From positions 25,063,501-25,127,500 of the forward strand of contig NC_088308.1 of the NCBI RefSeq assembly GCF_910592395.1: a stretch of DNA of 64,000 nucleotides, given 5' to 3'. Position 1 is the stretch's first letter. The number at the start of each line of letters is the position of its first letter. The notes below the pieces were generated by a model. The model was given only the letters and a program-made list of their open reading frames with translations, was not told the DNA's origin and searched no databases. The stretch comes from Lineus longissimus (Eukaryota > Nemertea > Pilidiophora > Heteronemertea > Lineidae). The position numbers were made by a program, and so were the translations under genes. Of this stretch, positions 2 to 39,053 are shown piece after piece.

Positions 2-15817
<15,816 letters not shown>

Positions 15818-23259: not shown

Positions 23260-25571
23260 ACCGCCTTAGTCACAGAAGAAGGAAAATGGGAAAGAAAAGA
23301 AAAAGGCATAGGCCGAATCTGAACCAGTTGAAGAATGATTTATCCCAGTTGGAGGCAAAAGATTCTAAATTATTTTGGGATTATTTAAAGAAGGTAAAAT
23401 TGGAAACCAAACAAAGGTCACCTGGAGATGATGTTTTTCCAGATACATGGTTTACCCACTTTAAAGGTATACTCTCTGATCCCACGGTGGAACTGGAACT
23501 AAACCCCTTCCGGAAAAATATTGTTGCTCAACTTGAAGCTCTTGAAAGGAGCAATTATAAAGTGGTCCAGAACCACTTGATTATCCAATAACTTCAGATT
23601 AAATACTTCTGGAGTTGAAACAACTAAAAAATGGTAAGGCTGGTGGTCCAGACAATATTCTCAATGAGATGCTCAAGTGAAAATCAAAGTTAGTCAAACC
23701 GCTCAGTAAGCTGTTCAATACCATTCTTGAGTCCGGAAATTTTCCCTCCAGTTGGGCGAATGACTATATGACTGTTTTACATAAAAAAGGTACCAAAAAA
23801 GACCCGAATAATTATAGGGGTATTAGCCTCTCGAGTTGTCTTGGTAAATTATTCACTAAATTAGTCAACACTCGGCTGACATGTTTTTTAAATGCAAATG
23901 GTCATATCCCGCCAGAGCAAGGTGGGTTTCGGAAAAATGTTCGCACCTCGGACAACGCCTTCATCCTTAAGTCTCTTCAAGACAAATACAAATTTAAAGA
24001 AAAAACAGGTCTCTTCTCATGTTTTTTGTTTTTCCAAAGCTTTTGACTCAGTTTGGAGACCTGGTCTGCTCTACAAGCTCCAAAAGTGCAATGTTACAGG
24101 GAATATGTACAATATTATTCAGTCGATGTTTGCAAATAGCTCGACACAAATTAAACTGGCAGACGGTCTCCTTCCCAAAATTGGAACATCTAGAGGTGTC
24201 CGGCAAGGTTGTTCGTTGAGTCCAACTCTTTTTAATTTATTTTTGTCAGATCTGCCAAGCCATTTGTTATCAAATAGTGATGATTGTGTCGAACTTGATT
24301 ATTATAAATTATGTTGTTTACTATATGCTGATGACTTGGTTTTACTGTCCTCCTCTGCTGAAGGTTTGAATAAAACTTGAGCCAGCCTTCAACAGTACTG
24401 CGGTATGTGGAATCTGACAGTGAACAGATCCAAAACAAAGGTAGTTGAGTTTAAAAGTCCACGATTAAGGTGTGACATGGTAAACGCGTATCTATTTAAT
24501 AATTATGTGATTGAGGTAGCAGACAGTTACACTTACCTCGGTATCAAATTTCATGCCTCTGGCAAATGTTCATTCTCTGCAACGGATATATGTCATAAAG
24601 CCAGGAAGGCAGTTTTCAAATTGAAGCATGATCAACCTGTATCACTCTCGCAAGATGTGCATTTATCCATGAAGCTATTTGATGCAATGGTTCTCCCAGT
24701 ATTATCTTATGGATGCGAGATATGGGGTTTTGAGTCGTTAAAATCAAATAACAGTATTGATTCTCTGCAATTAAAATTTTGCAAAGAGGTTTTAGGTGTC
24801 TCTAAATATGCTCCCAATGCTGTTGTGCTTGGGGAACTTGGGAGATATCCTTTGAAGGTTGTTATTCTTACTAGAATTTTATGTTTTTGTGAACATGTAA
24901 CTGACGTTGATAACAATAATCTTCTCCTAAAACTCGCCTTCAAATCTCAGTTAGATAATGTCAAACGGTATCCTAAATCTTCATGGATTGGCACTCTGAA
25001 AAAGTCTTTAAATCTTTCTGGCCTTGGGAACATTTGGCAGTCACTCCTCCACTTCCAGGTGTCAAATGTTGATATTTCTCTGTTTAATATGAGGTTAAAG
25101 GATATGTACCAACAGGAATGGCATTCCATATTGTATAATGATGTACGTAGGAACCCTGCACAGAAAAACAAACTCCGTCTTTACAGACAATTCAAATCAT
25201 CTTTCACATATGAAAGTTATCTATCAATGATGCTACCGACCATTGATCGAATTCATTTAACTAGATTTAGGATAAGTAATCACAAATTAAAAATTGAGTC
25301 TGGCAGATACACGGGCACCCCGGTTGCAGAAAGATTGTGCCCCCACTGCAATAAAGTTGAAACAGAGATTCATTTCCTGTTTGAATGTAATCTTTTCAAC
25401 CATCAACGGTCCCGACTCAACTTGCCTAACTGCAATCTTCCCAATGACTTAAAATTCATAAAAACAATGTCATCTACAGATTTTCATGTCGTGTCATCAT
25501 TGGGACATTTTATAACCAAAGCTTTCAAAATTAGGAACGTAAATGTTGAATACGTTCCTAAATATTTCTAG
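23260..25571 (+). pseudogene. non-LTR retrotransposon ORF2, reverse transcriptase to C-terminal zinc motif, broken
   Basis: Encodes most of a LINE-type ORF2 from just before the reverse transcriptase to the C-terminus. Motifs: NNYRGISLSSC, PPEQGGFR, FSKAFDSVW, GVRQGCSLSPTLFNLFLSDL, the YADD catalytic box (near 24326), YTYLGIKF, and a terminal CPHC...H...C knuckle. It is broken by a stop at 23589, a TGA near 23678, a frameshift near 24015-24046, and an in-frame TGA at 24378. From 24405 the frame stays open for 388 codons to the TAG at 25569-25571. No endonuclease domain precedes it, so the copy is 5'-truncated as is usual for LINEs. Clade is not settled from motifs; a jockey/CR1/I-type lineage is likely. 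Confidence 0.9.
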
Positions 25572-29404: not shown

Positions 29405-30304
29405 TATGGCAAGCCAAAGCGGAATTTATTCAAGACTTTAGAATTACCATTCAAGAAGTTAAATATAAGTTCAAGAAGGAAATATATGTTCAAGACTAAA
29501 ATATGTTCAACCCTGAATCAAATGTTTTCAACCTTGAATAAAATATGTTCAACCTTGAATAAAATATGTTCAACCTTGAATAAAATATGTCCAACCTTGA
29601 ACAAAATATATTCAACCTTGAACAAAATATATTCAAGACTCACGTGACCATATTCAAGACGCACGTGACCACAACATTGATGACGTAGTTGCTCATGTTT
29701 TGATGCTTTACGGACTTTCCCGAACCCATGGTACTTGTGTTGCGTTTTGGAGCTCGAATTGTTCGCAAGAGGTTTTGACACATGGTTGTACACGTACCTA
29801 GCCGCCTACACCTGACATGTACTGTAATCCTACACATCATGACATGGATGCCGAGTGAATGTCAGAGTCGATACATGTTTCACAGACATATCAGGCAAAT
29901 TATAGGTTCAAAATGCGCAATGCCTCTCACCTTTCATTCTTAAGGCCGACACCACTGTATCAGATTCTCGTTGTCTTTTAACATGTTTGAGTGTTTAGAC
30001 TATACAGGCAATCAATTATGTCGTGAAACAGAACGCATTAGAAGTACCACAGATTCTACGCTCTACGTCATCAATTTTGTGGTCACGTGCGTCTTGAATA
30101 TGGTCACGTGAGTCTTGAATATATTTTGTTCAAGGTTGAATATATTTTGTTCAAGGTTGGACATATTTTATTCAAGGTTGAACATATTTGATTCAAGGTT
30201 GAACATATTTTAGTCTTGAACATATATTTCCTTCTTGAACTTATATTTAACTTCTTGAATGGTAATTCTAAAGTCTTGAATAAATTCCGCTTTGGCTTGC
30301 CATA
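29405..30304. mobile_element. 900-bp foldback element with about 265-bp terminal inverted repeats
   Basis: Termini TATGGCAAGCC...GGCTTGCCATA are flanked by GTCGGA on both sides (29399-29404 and 30305-30310), a 6-bp target-site duplication. The arms (about 29405-29670 and 30045-30304) are near-perfect reverse complements. They include a run of TTCAACCTTGAA-type subrepeats with ATATGTT/ATATATT and CACGTGACC next to the loop. The 375-bp centre shows no transposase. Disregarding the element and one GTCGGA leaves the BEL/Pao frame uninterrupted across the site, which supports the boundaries. Confidence 0.92.
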
Positions 30305-31044
30305 GTCGGATGGCTCCACAGCAACAATAATCCCAAGTGGGTAATGTCCCCGATGAGCTATTTTTATCTCATCGCACAACATCACCAAATCATTCACAGC
30401 AAAGTCTCTAATTGGTGTGATGCTTTTCGTCCTCTCCTGCAGTGATGTCAAGTATTCCACTCGGAATCGTGCCCAAAATGCATTTATGAGTGCTTGCACT
30501 TGGCGATACCGATTTCTCACAATCAAGTCTCTTTCATAGAAGACTCCTGGTGGATGAGCATGAGCTGGTTCAGGGTTGAGAATTTGATTCGGCGTGATTG
30601 GTGCTGGATCTCTGGCGCTTGAGCTGTTTGCACATAGAGGACGACTATTGTACAAATGTTCACATTCAGCTACAACTGTTGCTAGCTGATCCTCAGTTGT
30701 AACTTGTCCCTTGATTACATTCAGCAGCACTCTCCGCAGTGTCCTAAAAGGCCTCTCCTTATTCCTGGTCTTGAAAACAAGGCTATCCTCTGTTACATTC
30801 CAACCAACTCCTAGCACTCTCTCATGGTGATCTTGATCTGTAGCTTGCTCAAATTCGAAGTCTTGCATTGATGGAGCCCTCCTCTCAGGATCAACTAGCT
30901 GAAGCAATTCTGAGTCATTTGTCACAAATTTTGCAAGTACAAAGCCTCCTTCCTCCATCAGCTTGAAGATCTGCTCCACAATGATTCTAATGCTGTCTCC
31001 CTATCGATTGACCTAATTACGTCATCAACGTAACTGTGACGTAA
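30305..31044 (-). pseudogene. BEL/Pao pol: end of reverse transcriptase joined to integrase C-terminal region
   Basis: Read on minus from 31044: the YVDD catalytic box of the reverse transcriptase lies at about 31016-31027, then RSIDRETA. A one-base frameshift follows near 30985-31005, then the main frame from 30979. This runs through RT-connection sequence (ERVLGVGWNVTEDSLVFK) to about residue 85, then directly into RRVLLNVIKG...LYNSRPL and a DUF5641-type region (RVEYLTSLQERTK, VNDLVMLCDE). In the family the RNase H and integrase catalytic core lie between these parts, so an in-frame internal deletion has removed them. The frame is then cut by the foldback element. Confidence 0.88.
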
Positions 31045-32280
31045 TAGACCGGCAGCCCAGGGTCCTCGGGATGGTTGAACTAGGTACCAATATCTGAGCA
31101 TGGGAGTGGGTAAAGGGTCATCTGAGATGAATAGTGGCAGTCTGCCGGGTACCACCCGTTGCATGTGGGTCTGGGGACCCCCCAAAAGGACCTAAAAATG
31201 GTCCCAAGATAGTTGACTGAGATACCACTTGTAACCAATAACACTCTGTGCTTACTACTAAACATACATCAAAAGTCCTAAAGACAGACATTTTTCGTGT
31301 CGCTAAGGGTCCGCCAGAAGGGCCAAAAAAATGGGCTAGCATAGATGAGCGAGATACCAAGTAAAATTAATGCCAAATGATTAAGCACTGTCCACTGTGT
31401 GTAAAACAGGTTACTCCAGATAAATTGTCCGTTGCACAAGCAGTACCAGACACCCCAAAAATTGACCCCTCGCCCCCAGAGTCCAACTAGGCTAGCTTAG
31501 ATATTGTAGGTACCAACTGAAACCAGGTTTAAATGATCAATCACACCATTGGGAATACAGAATTATCAATGGCAGACAAAATGTCCATTGCTGTGACCCT
31601 GCCAGACCCCCCCCCAAATAGGCCCTGGGGTACAGCTAGGCTAGCCTGGATATTGCAGGTACCAGCTGAAACCAAGTTTAAATGATCAAGCACACCATAG
31701 GGAATACAAAATTATAAATGGCAGACAAAATGTCCATTGCTGTGACCCTGCCAGACCTCCCCCCCCCCCAAATAGGCCCTAGGGTACAGCTAGGCTAGCT
31801 TAGATATTGTAGGTACCAGCTAAAACCAGGTTTAAATGATCAATCACACCATTGGGAATACAGAATTATCAATGGCAGACAAAATGTCCATTGCTCTGAC
31901 CCTGCCAGACCCCCCAAATAGGCCCTGGGGTACAACTAGGCTAGCCCGGATATTGCAGGTACCAGCTGAAACCAAGTTTAAATGATCAAGCACACCATAG
32001 GGAATGCAAAATTATCAACGGCAGACAAAATGTCCATTGCTATGACCCTGCCAGACCCCCCCCCCCATAGGCCCTGGGTTACATCTTGGCTAGCCCAGAT
32101 ATTGTAGGTCGGATGTGGTCGTTAGATGTATACAAAACTACAAGTATCTGAGACAAACTAAAACATATATTTTTTTCAAACATCTAGCTACATGATGGCA
32201 CTGATGCAGGCAAGGTGATAAAAAAAGACATATTGAGAAGTATGATCTCATTAAGAGTTGTTCTTATATCTCACTTTCGC
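31045..32280. repeat. left terminal inverted repeat of the nuclease transposon
   Basis: About 1.24 kb; reverse complement of 34540-35786 with scattered substitutions and poly-C length differences. It contains about four 150-bp subrepeats (starts near 31489, 31642, 31792 and 31938). The inner edge runs into the last codons of the element's gene. Confidence 0.93.
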
Positions 32281-34553
32281 TGTCTGAGTCATCACTCCAT
32301 TCTGGTCCAGAATCCGTGTCATTGTCAGTATCATCATCATACAAGTCTTCAGTTTGCCCGCCGGCGTCTTCATCAGTATTGTCAACTCCCTCACTCCTAC
32401 GATCACCTCCAAAAAGGTTGTCAGGTTCTGCAGGCCCAGGATACCAATCAGGTGTGTAATATCCATGTTCATCCTTCCATCCGTACTGCAGTGGGTCCAA
32501 ATCATGATCTGGTTGTGGAGAGTCCGCATTATCCCAGACAATAGACACATAATGTGCACGGCGAGTCTTATTTGACAGAGCTTTTCCACACGGTAGTAGT
32601 AGCGCACGGTCAACCTTTTTTACATTGGCCATTGGGTTTTCCTGAAATATCAGAATTGACAATGATAGATTTTGGTAGATGAACATTACATTTTTTCGAT
32701 TGAGAAGGATACGGATATCCTTGGTACCCGGTTATACCGGTACTGACATAGTCTTGAAGGGGAAAGGCCTCATATAAAAGGAGATTCGAAATGGTGGGGC
32801 TTTAAGGTTTATAGATCTGTAAACTTACTATTGTATTCTCCAATTATTTTCTGAAGAACATCTCACCTGATTAATTTTTCCTGTCATTTGAACCAGTTTG
32901 TTGTGCCTTGCTCGATTCACTTCCTTCACGTCCTTCATTCCATACAGGGAACACACATACTCCTCCGCTTTCTTTTGGCTTGGTTCTTCTCTGGATGACA
33001 TACTGCTAAACAACTTGATCAAATTCCCATCGTTGTTGTTCTCAAGCAGCTCGTAGGGCTGTAAAACAACGACGTGAAATCACAGCCTGTGAAGGCGTGC
33101 AGGCCAGGCAGTGCAGCTGAAAGTCCGGCTTGTTTCAACTCTAAGGCATTGGCAATGCTTGTTATGTCAATTTACCTGCGGCTGTTGCCTGAACCGCAGT
33201 CCATGATGATCGACTTCAGTGGTATCCCACTCATATTATATTCCGCCCAAGCAGCCCCAAGATTATCACGATGACATCAGTGTCCGAGGCTCGAATGAGG
33301 AGACTACCAGTGACCGAGGCAGCATGGAATGCTATAAGGGTATCTGCTTCCTCATGGTTTCCTTGCAGTGAGTCTGGAGAGTTGACAGTCATCTTGCAGC
33401 TGGTTTGACTGAATACTATGCGAAGACAGTTACCCCCATACGAGACGAGAAGTGTCTTCTTTCCAAGGATGGCCCCGTACTGGTCCTTCTGCCACTCAAT
33501 CATCAAGAATTTGGCCAGTTGATCCTTGAAAATGCCATTCTGCAGCAACTTCTGGCAACTCTGTTAGGGAGCTTGCTCGCTACCACTTATGATGAAAGGT
33601 TGATCTTCAACCCCACGTAATTTTTTTTCACTTTCTTCAAGGGAAGAAGGCAGATACTTGTCAAACAAGACATGAATTTCTTGTCCATGCGCAATGCTTG
33701 AGCAAACATGGCCCAACAGACCTCTTGCAAGATTCCCGTATGAGGATATGTTTCCAACAGCTGAAAGATATGAGTGAAGCAGCAGTCCACCATCAATCAA
33801 TGTGGCATCAATGTGAGGCAGTGTTGTCATTCCGTCTTGCATCGACTCCAGCTTGTCCAAGAGCTTGCTTTTCGTGGTCTTGAGCAGTGAACCATCAGGT
33901 TGAGCAATGGCTAGTGGAAAATCGGTGATGGGGTAGCTAACAACATGTTCCAGGTCGAAGTTGGTCTCTTGAGAAATAACGACCAGCATCCGGATAAACT
34001 TGTCCCGTTGACTGTTGACTACTGGAATGGCTTTAGAACTAGCTGATCGTTTGGTCTTCGTGTTCTCACTCGCAAAGTTATTCACTTTTCTCCGCTTTAT
34101 TGGCTTCAATAATCTGGAGCTATCCTCAACACACTCCTCCCTAAACTTCTTCTGCAGTCCATGACCGGTTGGCAAAGATTTTGTGAGGTACTCTTGGGTT
34201 GTAGCAGAGGCTCCCTTTCCTGTGGCAATGTTCAGCAGGATTGCAGACGTGGAGGCAGGTCCAGAGAATGGGTCACCGGATTCAGTCACTGCATCTAGAA
34301 GAACTTGAGCCTGACGGTTATCCTTCTTAATTCGACTTGGACGAAGCTGTGTTCTCGGTTGCTCTTCTGGTAGGAGTCCTGTCAGTCGCCTCAGCTCGGT
34401 TACAGACATTCCTCGTCGGGTGGAGGTAATGCACCAACGACGAATTGCACTGGTCGAATTCTGGAATCCAACAATTCCCTTCATCGGGGAAGCAGCATCC
34501 CTGTTAACGGTTTGCTCCAGTGTTAAGTCAATCGCTGAAAGAAAGTGAGACAT
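32264..34553 (-). pseudogene. FEN/XPG/XRN-like nuclease of the TIR transposon, decayed
   Basis: The main ORF starts at ATG 34553 (329 codons). Features: basic nuclear-localisation-like KPIKRRK (about 150-156), then RDKFIRMLVVISQETNFDLE, LIDGGLLLHS (D254) and HVLFDKY (D298). An in-frame TAA (33564-33566) interrupts, and the same frame resumes to NHEEADTLIAFHA and RASDTDVIVIIL, ending at 33231. Another frame carries IIMDCGSGN, an in-frame TAA, then LPGLHAFTGCDF. Later parts are KPYELLENNNDG...EEYVCSLYGMKDVKEVNRAR (to about 32873, with a GTGAGA donor) and, after a CAG acceptor near 32645, VDRALLLPCGKAL with an acidic Asp/Glu-Ser tail ending at TAA 32264. The order D, D, E, D-x-D, GCD is that of 5' nucleases (FEN1, XPG, XRN). 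Similar uncharacterised proteins are common in fish and cnidarian genomes. Confidence 0.75.
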
Positions 34554-35786
34554 AAGAACAACTCCTTATGAGATCATACTTCTCAATATGTCTTTTTTTA
34601 TCACCTTGCCTGCATCATTGCCATCATGTAGCTAGATGTTTGAAAAAAATATATGTTTTAGTTTGTCTGAGATATTTGTAGTTTTGTATACATCTAACGA
34701 CCACATCCGACCTACAATATCTGGGCTAGCCAAGATGTACCCCAGGGCCTATGGGGGGGGGGGTCTGGCAGGGTCATAGCAATGGACATTTTGCCTGCCG
34801 TTGATAATTTTGCATTCCCTATGGTGTGCTTGATCATTTAAACTTGGTTTCAGCTGGTACCTGCAATACCCGGGCTAGCCTAGTTGTACCCCAGGGCCTA
34901 TTTGGGGGGTCTGGCAGGGTCAGAGCAATGGACATTTTGTCTGCCATTGATAATTCTGTATTCCCAATGGTGTGATTGATCATTTAAACCTGGTTTCAGT
35001 TGGTACCTACAATATCTAAGCTAGCCTAGCTGTACCCCAGGGCCTATTTGGGGGGGGGGGGGGTCTGGCAGGGTCACAGCAATGGACATTTTGTCTGCCA
35101 TTGATAATTTTGTATTCCCTATGGTGTGCTTGATCATTTAAACTTGGTTTCAGCTGGTACCTGCAATACCCGGGCTAGCCTAGTTGTACCCCAGGGCCTA
35201 TTTGGGGGGGTCTGGCAGGGTCACAGCAATGGACATTTTGTCTGCCATTGATAATTCTGTATTCCCAATGGTGTGATTGATCATTTAAACCTGGTTTCAG
35301 TTGGTACCTACAATATCTAAGCTAGCCTAGTTGGACTCTGGGGGCGAGGGGTCAATTTTTGGGGGTGTCTGGTACTGCTTGTGCAACGGACAATTTATCT
35401 GGAGTAACCTGTTTTACACACAGTGGACAGTGCTTAATCATTTGGCATTAATTTTACTTGGTATCTCGCTCATCTATGCTAGCCCATTTTTTTGGCCCTT
35501 TTTGGGGGGTCTGGCGGACCCTTAGCGACGCGAAAAATGTCTGTCTTTAGGACTTTTGATGTATGTTTAGTAGTAAGCACAGAGTGTTATTGGTTACAAG
35601 TGGTATCTCAGTCAACTATCTTGGGACCATTTTTAGGTCCTTTTAGGGGGTCCCCAGACCCACATGCAACGGGTGGTACCCGGCAGACTGCCACATCTAT
35701 TCATCTCAGATGACCCTTTACCCACTCCCACACTCAGATATTGGTACCTAGTTCAACTAACCCGAGGGCCCTGGGCTGCCGGTCTA
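34540..35786. repeat. right terminal inverted repeat of the nuclease transposon
   Basis: About 1.25 kb; partner of 31045-32280. The inner edge includes the ATG and first codons of the gene (34553 leftward). Any promoter for the gene must therefore lie inside this repeat, and an equivalent promoter copy would sit in the other arm. Confidence 0.93.
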
Positions 35787-36344
35787 TAAGCCTGTTTTGA
35801 TAACTTCTGGGTGATATTTATCAACATTGTCCGTACAGGTTCTCTGCAGTGCATAGCCGGCGTTTCCTGGTGCATGAGTTCCTCCAAAGAAGTTATGAAG
35901 AAGTTGAAACTCGACTACCTCACCATCCAAATTGTTGTCTTCAAACCATAGATAACGACATAAGTTCAAATTGTCACTGATGAAAACTTGATTGAACATA
36001 CAATTTATGTCAGCTTGAATGGCGACTTCTCCGCCCGTGCGAAATCTCAGAAGAACTCCTAGCAGTGAGTTGATGTTATCTTCCCCGAAATATATGTGAT
36101 CATTCAGACAAGATCCTTCATATCTGGCAGCTGCATCCCAGACAATCCTAAGTCTGCCCGGCTTGGCTGGGTGTAGTACACGATGAAAGGGAACATAGTT
36201 TATAACATCATCAGTCTCGCATTCCTCTTCTGGTATTCTTCTTACGTAACCCTTCCTACGGTAATCATCGAAAATGTCACAGTATGCCTGGTATTCAGTT
36301 TTATTTTCTGCAACCAATTTTCCTGCTTTCAGTTTTTTCTTCAC
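35784..36344 (-). pseudogene. BEL/Pao reverse transcriptase, N-terminal part
   Basis: Frame with NYVPFHRVLHPAKPGRLRIV, DAAARYEGSCLNDHIY, AIQADINCMFNQVFI (first catalytic Asp block) and FFGGTHAPGNAGYALQR. It is the fingers/palm of a Pao-type RT. It is cut at 35786 by the TIR transposon; the YVDD half continues at 31044. It is in a different frame from both the segment upstream and gag/protease. Confidence 0.92.
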
Positions 36345-36726
36345 TGACTAATCTCTTGTACACCAACTCACGGTTGTTTGACATCGTACTATAGGAATCT
36401 TTCAACGGAATAGGTACATAGTAATGTCCGTCACATAGATATGTTCCTTCCTCCAAGACATCCCTAGCCTTCAGATCCTCTGCAGAAATTGGTTTCTTGA
36501 AATTGTGTCTGGTTCCTGCATATTCAAATTCTGCCATCTGTATCAGTTTCTGGTTTAAATCCTCATAGCGTTTATCAACTGAGACGAAGTTACAGTCTAG
36601 TTTCCCATGAGGAATCCAACCAAGTAAGGTCCATCCCCATTTTATAGCGTACAGCAACAGGATCTCCTCGATTTGGTCCCGGCCTCCACTCAAGCTGTTG
36701 ATGAGCCTCTGGTACATTGCTGCCAA
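36301..36726 (-). pseudogene. BEL/Pao pol: protease-RT linker segment
   Basis: Open frame of 141 codons reading WGWTLLGWIPHGKLD, then a linker typical of BEL/Pao pol between protease and RT. It overlaps the end of the gag-protease frame and the start of the RT frame. Two frameshifts therefore separate what should be one polyprotein, unless ribosomal frameshifting is invoked; decay is simpler. Confidence 0.85.
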
Positions 36727-39031
36727 CTATAACTTTGATTCTCTCAGTAGGTGCAGTTGAGATTTGAAGATCTTTGAGATGGTCATATTTCATCCATGCT
36801 GCCTTGTCTGGTATGTGTTTCTCACCGATAGGTAGCTGATCCCAAGAGTAGACTTCATTCAACGTAATAGGCTCCTGATCTCCTTCAGCCAAGCTTTCAA
36901 CAACCAGTTCAATTACTGTGCTATAGCCATCTTGAGATCCATGCAGCGTATTCAACGATATCTTCTGTTCAGCCGACTCCAAGGACAGTTCATTGAGTAG
37001 AGACTTTTCACAAAAACATGCGCTCGAGTAAGAATCGATACCAGCCCACGTTCTTACTTCTTTTCCTGTCACTGGTGATTTGACGATGACAGGAAATGCC
37101 GGGAAGTAGACATTATGGCCATTGGTGGTTGTGCATGCATTATCAACATCGTCCTTCTTCGTCTGTTCATCAAAATGTAGGATGGTGTGATGCTTCCTGC
37201 TTGCCTTGCAACCCTTGACTTTGCATTCTTTAGGTAACGGACATTGAGACACCAAGCTGTGGGGTACTTTATCATCCAAGTTCAAACAATTGAAGCATAA
37301 TCTCTGGCCTTTTATAGCTTCCATCCGCTGCTTCCATGGCTTTGACTTCAGGATATCACACTGCCAAATCTTGTGTTCACTTGAACAACCCGAGACTGAG
37401 CATTTCAATGACGCACCATTACCATTACCATTGCTTGCACCATTACCATTACCAGTATTCTTTCTTGTGGCATTACCATTACCATTATTCTTGTTACCAT
37501 TCGACACGAAATAGGTAGACTTCGATGCACTCTGATCATGACTTGTCTTCTTGACATTGGCGCCCCCTGTGCTATTGTGAGTATGGCTTCTCTTGTTATC
37601 AAGTAGTATCGAAAACTCCGAGTCATTTACTTGTAGAGAAATTTTCTTTACAAAGTCAACAACATCTTTGAAGCAAACTTCGCCTTTTTTCTCCCTGAGA
37701 TCCGATGCTTTCTTTAGCCATCCTCTGCGATCGTGAAGTGGTAACTTTGACACCGCGTCAACTAAGTAGCTGGGATGATCCAATGCAGTTTCCTTCCCGA
37801 CACTTGAAATCGAGAGATGAGCTGTCTCCAACAACTCCGAGTATGACCTCAACTCATGCCTTTCTCCCGGCTTGATGTCTACAACCTGTTTCAGCTTCCT
37901 GTGGAACTCTTGAGTGATAAGATGAGGCTGCCCAAATTGTCTATACAGTTCATTCGTTGCTTCTGCGAAAGCTTTCCCTGGTGGTAACATATCGTACTTT
38001 TTAATCACATCATTCGCCTTTCCGAAACAATACTTTCTCAAGTTTTGATATTTCTCACCATCATCCTGAGTCCTGGTTTCTATGTTTGCTTGGAAAGAAC
38101 TTTTGAATCTTGGGTAATCTAAGGGATCGCCAGAAAAACCTTTCAACTCAGGCCGAGGCAATTCTAGGCGAGTTTGCAGTAGCCTCAAATGATTTACGAC
38201 TGCATGTAATCCATCCACCGCAGTGGCATTTGGCTCGCCAATATTGTCGACCGCTCCCAGTACAACAGGTCCTAGTTTTCTATCATGGACACTTGGCCCG
38301 CCATCAGAGTTCATATTTACGAAGTTCACAGTGTCTGGTTGTTGAACCATACTGCCAGACATTTCAAGAGACGGCGCAGTGTTGACATTTGGCCCGCCAT
38401 CAGAGTTTGTATTTACAAAGTTTACAGTAACATGGTCCGGTTGAACCATACTGCCAACCATTTCCTGAGACAGCGCAGTTTTGACATTTGGCCCGCCATC
38501 AGAGCTCGTATTTACAAAGTTTACAGTAACAGTGTCCGGTTGTTGAACCATACTGCCAACCATTTCCAGAGACGGCGCAGTCCTGACATTTGGCTCGTCA
38601 ATCAGACCCTCCTGATTTCCCCACATGGGATCTAACCCATCAGCAGTCATGACGTTCGTTGGTACACTAGTATTCTCGAACTCAAAATCACCTGCTCTAG
38701 AGTCCTGATCGTTGAATTCAATTTCTAGCGCCATCTGATTCTCCAACGCCCTAACCTGGATGTCGAGCAATTTCTCTTGCTCTTCGAGCTCTATTTCCTC
38801 CCTACGTCTCCTGTGTGCTGCTTCTAACTGCACTCTCTTCATTTCCAATTCAGCTTTATTTTGACGAAATTTCAGCTTAATACTTTTGTCACTACAGTTC
38901 GAACGGAAGCTCCCATCCCCACTTGGAAGACTCATGGCACCAGAATCCATGTTCGAATAGCGAGAGAACGGCACCCCCTGGGGATCGAAGCCCAAACTAA
39001 CGTCAGTGTCTTTTACACGTGTGTTCTCCAT
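36590..39031 (-). CDS. BEL/Pao gag-protease ORF (813 codons)
   Basis: Starts at ATG 39031, just inside the 5' LTR. Order: a Glu/Arg-rich coiled coil (about 55-105); three to four imperfect repeats of about 33-35 residues with SLEMVGSMVQQPDTVTVNFV (about 145-245); the DUF1759 gag region (LPRPELKGFSGDPLDYPRFK, about 290-400); an Asn/Gly-rich spacer; and Cys/His clusters (CSVSGCSSEHKIWQCD, CFNCLNLDD, CKVKGCKASRKHH). Then comes a retroviral-type aspartic protease region. At its active site this copy has D-S-Y-S where D-[ST]-G is expected, so the protease is probably dead. The frame stops at 36590, past the protease. The long intact ORF suggests fairly recent insertion. Confidence 0.9.
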   Translation of the reverse strand: MENTRVKDTDVSLGFDPQGVPFSRYSNMDSGAMSLPSGDGSFRSNCSDKSIKLKFRQNKAELEMKRVQLEAAHRRRREEIELEEQEKLLDIQVRALENQMALEIEFNDQDSRAGDFEFENTSVPTNVMTADGLDPMWGNQEGLIDEPNVRTAPSLEMVGSMVQQPDTVTVNFVNTSSDGGPNVKTALSQEMVGSMVQPDHVTVNFVNTNSDGGPNVNTAPSLEMSGSMVQQPDTVNFVNMNSDGGPSVHDRKLGPVVLGAVDNIGEPNATAVDGLHAVVNHLRLLQTRLELPRPELKGFSGDPLDYPRFKSSFQANIETRTQDDGEKYQNLRKYCFGKANDVIKKYDMLPPGKAFAEATNELYRQFGQPHLITQEFHRKLKQVVDIKPGERHELRSYSELLETAHLSISSVGKETALDHPSYLVDAVSKLPLHDRRGWLKKASDLREKKGEVCFKDVVDFVKKISLQVNDSEFSILLDNKRSHTHNSTGGANVKKTSHDQSASKSTYFVSNGNKNNGNGNATRKNTGNGNGASNGNGNGASLKCSVSGCSSEHKIWQCDILKSKPWKQRMEAIKGQRLCFNCLNLDDKVPHSLVSQCPLPKECKVKGCKASRKHHTILHFDEQTKKDDVDNACTTTNGHNVYFPAFPVIVKSPVTGKEVRTWAGIDSYSSACFCEKSLLNELSLESAEQKISLNTLHGSQDGYSTVIELVVESLAEGDQEPITLNEVYSWDQLPIGEKHIPDKAAWMKYDHLKDLQISTAPTERIKVIVGSNVPEAHQQLEWRPGPNRGDPVAVRYKMGMDLTWLDSSWETRL

Positions 39032-39053
39032 ATTCTACAGCAAAGATTTTAAC

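Follow-up and report, generated by a model that had tools for sequence, protein, structure and literature searches.

A probable Academ/AcademX-like DNA transposon in Lineus longissimus: an internally deleted copy and its relatives with predicted DDE and FEN/XRN-like nuclease domains

The transposon and its insertion site

The stretch of DNA analysed here, referred to as the window, covers 64,000 nucleotides of the genome of the nemertean Lineus longissimus (C1:25063501-25127500 in a 391-Mb assembly of 30 contigs) and harbours a DNA transposon of 4,742 bp at positions 31045-35786. The ends of the element pair as terminal inverted repeats (TIRs) of 1,234 and 1,246 bp, which are 96.8% identical when aligned with each other. 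TAA is found on either flank (GACGTAA/TAGACC on the left and GGTCTA/TAAGCC on the right, the slash marking the element boundary) and represents a 3-bp target-site duplication. When the two flanks of the element were joined into a 400-bp query, the genome proved to contain an empty paralogous site, C7:12836907-12837304, which matches the join at 99% and without interruption. The window unit is thus a bona fide transposon insertion, and the original prediction, made from the sequence alone, was right to describe a discrete mobile unit with TIRs of about 1.2 kb and a TAA duplication, as the end alignment, the flanks and the empty site on C7 all agree with it. The tandem units of about 150 bp that lie inside the right inverted repeat (Table 1) are mirrored in the left one. 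Across the long copies of the element, TIR length ranges from 732 to 1,246 bp, a variation that perhaps reflects the number of these units.

The coding remnant of the window copy

The only large coding remnant of the window copy lies on the minus strand and had been described as a nuclease gene with five acidic blocks. IDGG, LFDKY, HEEADT, SDTDV and FTGCD are indeed present in this order, yet they are spread over three frames instead of one, since the nuclease frame is broken by an in-frame stop (33564-33566), a frame change near 33234, a later stop and a short missing piece. Introns are unlikely to lie behind these breaks, since the corresponding region of L009, a full-length relative in the same genome that is described below, is read without such interruptions. 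The open stretch that ends at the in-frame stop aligns to the 1,408-amino-acid (aa) protein P0121 from residue 841 onward at 73%, and the window copy gave no match to earlier P0121 residues. Near the start of this open frame, the D and E of a DLTLEQT motif occupy 34529-34515, and alignments place the final residue of the DDE triad at the E (34515-34517). The earlier statement that no DDE motif is visible consequently holds for the window copy insofar as that part is deleted, with the exception of this last E, which remains. As it stands, the window copy cannot encode DDE or nuclease activity.

Pfam and PDB sequence searches with pieces of the window provided nothing useful for the nuclease gene, and the bZIP_Maf, DUF4503 and similar Pfam matches fell below the cut-off and were disregarded. 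A 417-aa L. longissimus gene model (P0002, NCBI LOC135503582) was the second-best protein match, sharing 98% identity with the window copy across 60% of the query, and appears to be a piece of the transposon family and not a host gene.

A full-length relative with two predicted catalytic domains

When the first 601 bases of the element were used as a query, 78 matches were obtained in the genome, of which many are partial. Two of the ends lie 8.3 kb apart and delimit an element of 8,284 bp (C1:11212272-11220555, or L009:673-8956), with TIRs of 732 bp at 98% identity and a TAT duplication. Its coding region aligns with P0121 in two stretches, residues 2-1049 (69%) and residues 1025-1402 (70%), with one frame change in their overlap; the stop recorded for L009 falls in the tail read beyond the frame change. 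Putative Cys/His motifs were noticed by eye in the N-terminus of the large protein. L009 has a predicted DDE-type domain (L009:4333-6099, minus strand) in the same protein as the nuclease.

Modelling of the L009 DDE fragment gave a predicted local distance difference test score (pLDDT) of 92 and a predicted template modelling score (pTM) of 0.91. In this model, D93 sits on a first strand, D251 lies where a later strand ends, and E497 belongs to a helix that follows a helical insertion. Rows 1-13 of the VIA-align comparison are headed by the P-element transposase (11.7; 362 aligned, root-mean-square deviation 5.0), followed by Transib (8.8), ISCth4 (8.5), Hermes (8.3) and RAG1 (7.2), the rest being more chains of ISCth4, Hermes and Transib. 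The large protein of the family is therefore predicted to contain an RNase H-like fold that is closest to DDE transposases.

The nuclease fold was modelled on P0003, a relative that is 65% identical over 81% of the query, in place of the window copy. The VIA list for the whole of P0003 was filled by the nuclease and the N-terminal part of the protein was absent from it, so that part was modelled separately. The nuclease of the P0003 model aligns with XRN1 and XRN2 (12.9 each), EXO1 (12.5) and FEN1 (12.1), in keeping with the PIN/FEN fold that had been anticipated. Foldseek E-values were not significant at 0.001 for the nuclease model or the DDE model. The blocks D, D, E-A-D, D-x-D and G-x-D, typical of FEN/XPG/XRN enzymes, occur in order in the window, over its three frames, and in the relatives. 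On the strength of these acidic blocks and of the modelled fold, the C-terminal domain is assigned to the FEN/XPG/XRN nuclease superfamily as a putative nuclease. It resembles XRN1, EXO1, FEN1 and XPG in both respects and differs from them in being fused to a transposase, with 9-16% identity among the matches listed.

Conservation of the two domains was assessed in proteins collected by searches that scored 7,996 and 7,994 candidates sharing most words, from which the best 120 of 168 and the best 120 of 123 hits were considered; set A1 comprises 79 of 120 listed proteins, and set A2 71 database proteins plus one L009 fragment. Both domain stretches are covered by 84 of the 208 aligned sequences. 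The seven nuclease acids are retained in all 84, as is the E of the triad, while the second D is present in 83 and the first D in 68 (14 gaps and two N), which leaves 67 sequences with the full DDE triad. Among the nine and six sequences scanned against Pfam, DUF6589 exceeded the cut-off in P0089 alone (30.2 bits vs 27) and was below the cut-off or absent in the other eight and six, including P0135 (24.5 vs 27) and the L027 open reading frame (ORF; none). The precomputed annotation does assign PF20231 to P0089 and to 13 of 120 rows among the matches listed, P0135 included. No paper that treats DUF6589 together with a transposon turned up in a literature search.

It appears very likely, as one joint explanation, that the full-length element measures about 8.3 kb and encodes a single large protein with a putative Cys/His N-terminus, a DDE-type (RNase H-like) domain that contains a helical insertion, and a nuclease of the FEN/XRN family at the C-terminus, that this family is Academ/AcademX-like, and that the copy in the window is one of its non-autonomous members, having suffered internal deletions.

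Probable recent spread of deleted copies

The window copy and five further loci (L010-L014) all lack approximately 745-4325 and 6662-7358 of the L009 element in alignment. The same late frame change, later stop and missing piece within the nuclease are common to all six, and four of them (the window copy, L010, L011 and L012) bear additional upstream breaks. Pairwise identity among the six is 98.7-100%, and their 3-bp duplications are TAA, CAG, CTT, TAA, ATA and TGA, five being distinct. Because the copies are this similar, share their lesions and are flanked by different duplications, they are most simply explained by a recent spread that followed the loss of the transposase part and the breakage of the nuclease. 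Two shorter copies lack the nuclease core: L015, of 2.6 kb with an ATT duplication, and L019, a 537-bp MITE-like product (miniature inverted-repeat transposable element) of the same family (L019:5794-6330), with 99-bp inverted repeats at 100% identity and an AAA duplication.

Eighteen loci were fetched, eight of which have both terminal ends and make up, with the window copy, the nine copies used in the duplication counts. L016 and L017, which look like duplicates of the L015 locus with the same left flank, were left out because the terminal 23 bases of one end find no counterpart in them; the remaining eight loci showed one end only, with a 200-base query. Across the nine two-ended copies, the flanks match over 3 bp in 9/9 and over 4 bp in 0/9, and a control pairing left flanks with the right flanks of other copies gave a 3-bp match in 2/72. 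The length of the duplication is thus as originally suggested, but its proposed restriction to TWA is not: the sequences vary (TAA, TAT, CAG, CTT, ATA, TGA, ATT, AAA), and CAG, CTT, TGA and others rule out a TWA-specific duplication.

A distantly related family with an unbroken reading frame

A second family, distant from the first (about 27% identical), is represented on C12 by L027 and L028. Both have an uninterrupted ORF of 1,596 aa and ends reading TAGTG(T/C)AGCGGCCAAGG, with 3-bp duplications of ATA and CAT, respectively, and TIR similarity of 94% within L027 and 83% within L028. They belong to at least seven rows whose stop-free frames of 1,467-1,639 aa match most of P0121 at 27-28%, in a search that scored 33 of 327 candidates, so that the family sizes given for this genome are lower bounds. 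In alignment, the L027 ORF keeps the complete DDE triad together with the seven nuclease acids, and the second family supports, at the level of sequence, the same predicted DDE and nuclease architecture. L027:1741-9094 and L028:2061-9060 are 99.4% identical across 6.9 kb, which suggests that this family has possibly been active recently.

Relation to Academ and the role of the nuclease

The AcademH and AcademX lineages were reportedly defined by Kojima in 2020, and the nuclease of AcademX is of the XPG type. P elements generate 8-bp duplications, and to our knowledge they have no FEN-type domain; the P-element transposase (6p5a) is the best structural match of the DDE domain described here, yet at 9% identity. 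In an excerpt of PMC10045372, duplications of 9 or 10 bp are ascribed to AcademH and of 3 or 4 bp to AcademX, a distinction related to the helicase and the nuclease that they encode, respectively. Academ is regarded as a DDE/D superfamily in PMC10294476, which reports an expansion of its ORFs in bivalves and a small number of them in two annelids. The present family resembles AcademX as a TIR-bearing DNA transposon of animals with a 3-bp duplication (in 9/9 copies, and again in L027 and L028) and an encoded putative nuclease. The DDE/D character is predicted for the family from L009, L027 and the 84 two-domain sequences; unlike AcademX, the window copy is devoid of most of the transposase part and keeps only its tail with the final E. 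AcademH, the other lineage named there, differs in its helicase and longer duplications. As duplication length, DDE transposase and nuclease all agree with AcademX as published, the family is filed as Academ/AcademX-like with considerable confidence.

Based on the fold and the conserved residues, cleavage of the transposon ends and their transfer to the target, staggered by 3 bp, are most likely the work of the DDE domain. The FEN/XRN domain would probably process ends, flaps, strands or repair intermediates during excision or integration, as a guess from the nuclease family. Because the deletions are shared and the spread is apparently recent, the window copy would have been mobilised by a protein supplied from a full-length element.

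A stronger role for the nuclease is conceivable but rather unlikely: it could act as an obligatory second catalytic centre of transposition that fixes the exact 3-bp stagger, for instance by trimming 5′ flaps or non-transferred strands, and the superfamily concerned might be separate from Academ. Slightly less probable still is that the element, a DDE transposon fused to a FEN/XRN nuclease, simply belongs to a superfamily other than Academ. The comparison with Academ covers published traits in place of sequences; the P-element transposase ranks first structurally, and the single Pfam match at cut-off, DUF6589 in P0089, has no stated Academ link in the material examined. Against such a separation, the AcademX traits in the excerpt of PMC10045372 (3- or 4-bp duplications and a nuclease) fit, as does the occurrence of Academ ORFs in bivalves and annelids outlined in PMC10294476.

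The main idea of the original prediction, that a new superfamily is moved by the FEN/XRN-like protein acting as its transposase, is now very improbable and has been rejected, although its recognition of FEN/XRN-type blocks and fold holds. It could draw on the nuclease being the sole large coding remnant in the window copy and on the invariance of the seven nuclease acids in the two-domain sequences. However, longer relatives, L009 and the second family, encode a predicted DDE-type transposase of the standard cut-and-paste kind with the nuclease attached, which makes the nuclease alone a very unlikely mover, and six copies that share a broken nuclease frame have spread. L015 and L019, without the nuclease core, point in the same direction, though nuclease loss at single loci could have followed insertion. 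That the deleted subfamily retains its truncated nuclease ORF as a functional trans-acting protein, such as a repressor, is hardly credible: a long stretch from the same start is kept in six copies, and 417 aa of it appear as an NCBI gene model, but the nuclease domain of all six is disrupted by the same frame change, stop and missing piece, with further breaks upstream of these in four.

With the claim of a PIN/FEN enzyme acting alone as a transposase removed, this single genome offers a test system in which the role of the nuclease domain in transposition could be examined directly: besides a full-length relative, it contains copies recently derived by deletion, one derivative of 537 bp, and a second family whose frame is unbroken. 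The predicted DDE fold, nearest to P-element, Transib and Hermes among the comparisons, provides a structural handle on a poorly characterised group of transposases.

Other features of the window

Table 1. Features of the transposon and of the surrounding host sequence (window positions)
Feature	Position	Strand	Basis or remark
Host sequence, BEL/Pao-type retroelement ORF with DUF5641	30104-31000	-	Transposon inserted into retroelement
Target-site duplication TAA, left copy	31042-31044		Flank reading
Left TIR, begins TAGACCGGCAGCCC	31045-32278	+	1,234 vs 1,246 bp, 96.8% identity
Open stretch with acidic C-terminal exon ENPMANVKKVDRALL...	32264-32731	-	Like P0008 C-terminus; exon borders by eye
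End of main exon, beyond short missing piece	32828-33079	-	Comparison with relatives
Nuclease domain, different frame, FTGCD	33061-33234	-	Contains one in-frame stop
Nuclease domain continued, HEEADT and SDTDV	33231-33563	-	Terminates at frame change
Open stretch: end of DDE domain, linker, first nuclease blocks IDGG and LFDKY	33564-34565	-	Terminates at in-frame stop
Right TIR	34541-35786	-	Inner part with about four tandem units of about 150 bp (34710-35333)
Target-site duplication TAA, right copy	35787-35789		Flank reading
Host sequence, remainder of BEL/Pao-type retroelement	35784-39034	-	ORFs 35784-36347, 36301-36726, 36590-39034

The transposon splits a retroelement (30104-39034, minus strand) of which a near-identical intact site exists on C7. 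DUF1759 was found in its ORF 36590-39034 (minus strand), and with DUF5641 on the other side of the insertion, we take this retroelement to be of the BEL/Pao type. A remnant resembling a long interspersed nuclear element lies at 23892-25571 on the plus strand; it has a reverse transcriptase domain (PF00078, E 9e-18) and is split by a stop. Finally, a single-frame gene for a rhodopsin-type G-protein-coupled receptor (PF00001, E 8e-41) occupies 2197-3321 on the minus strand.
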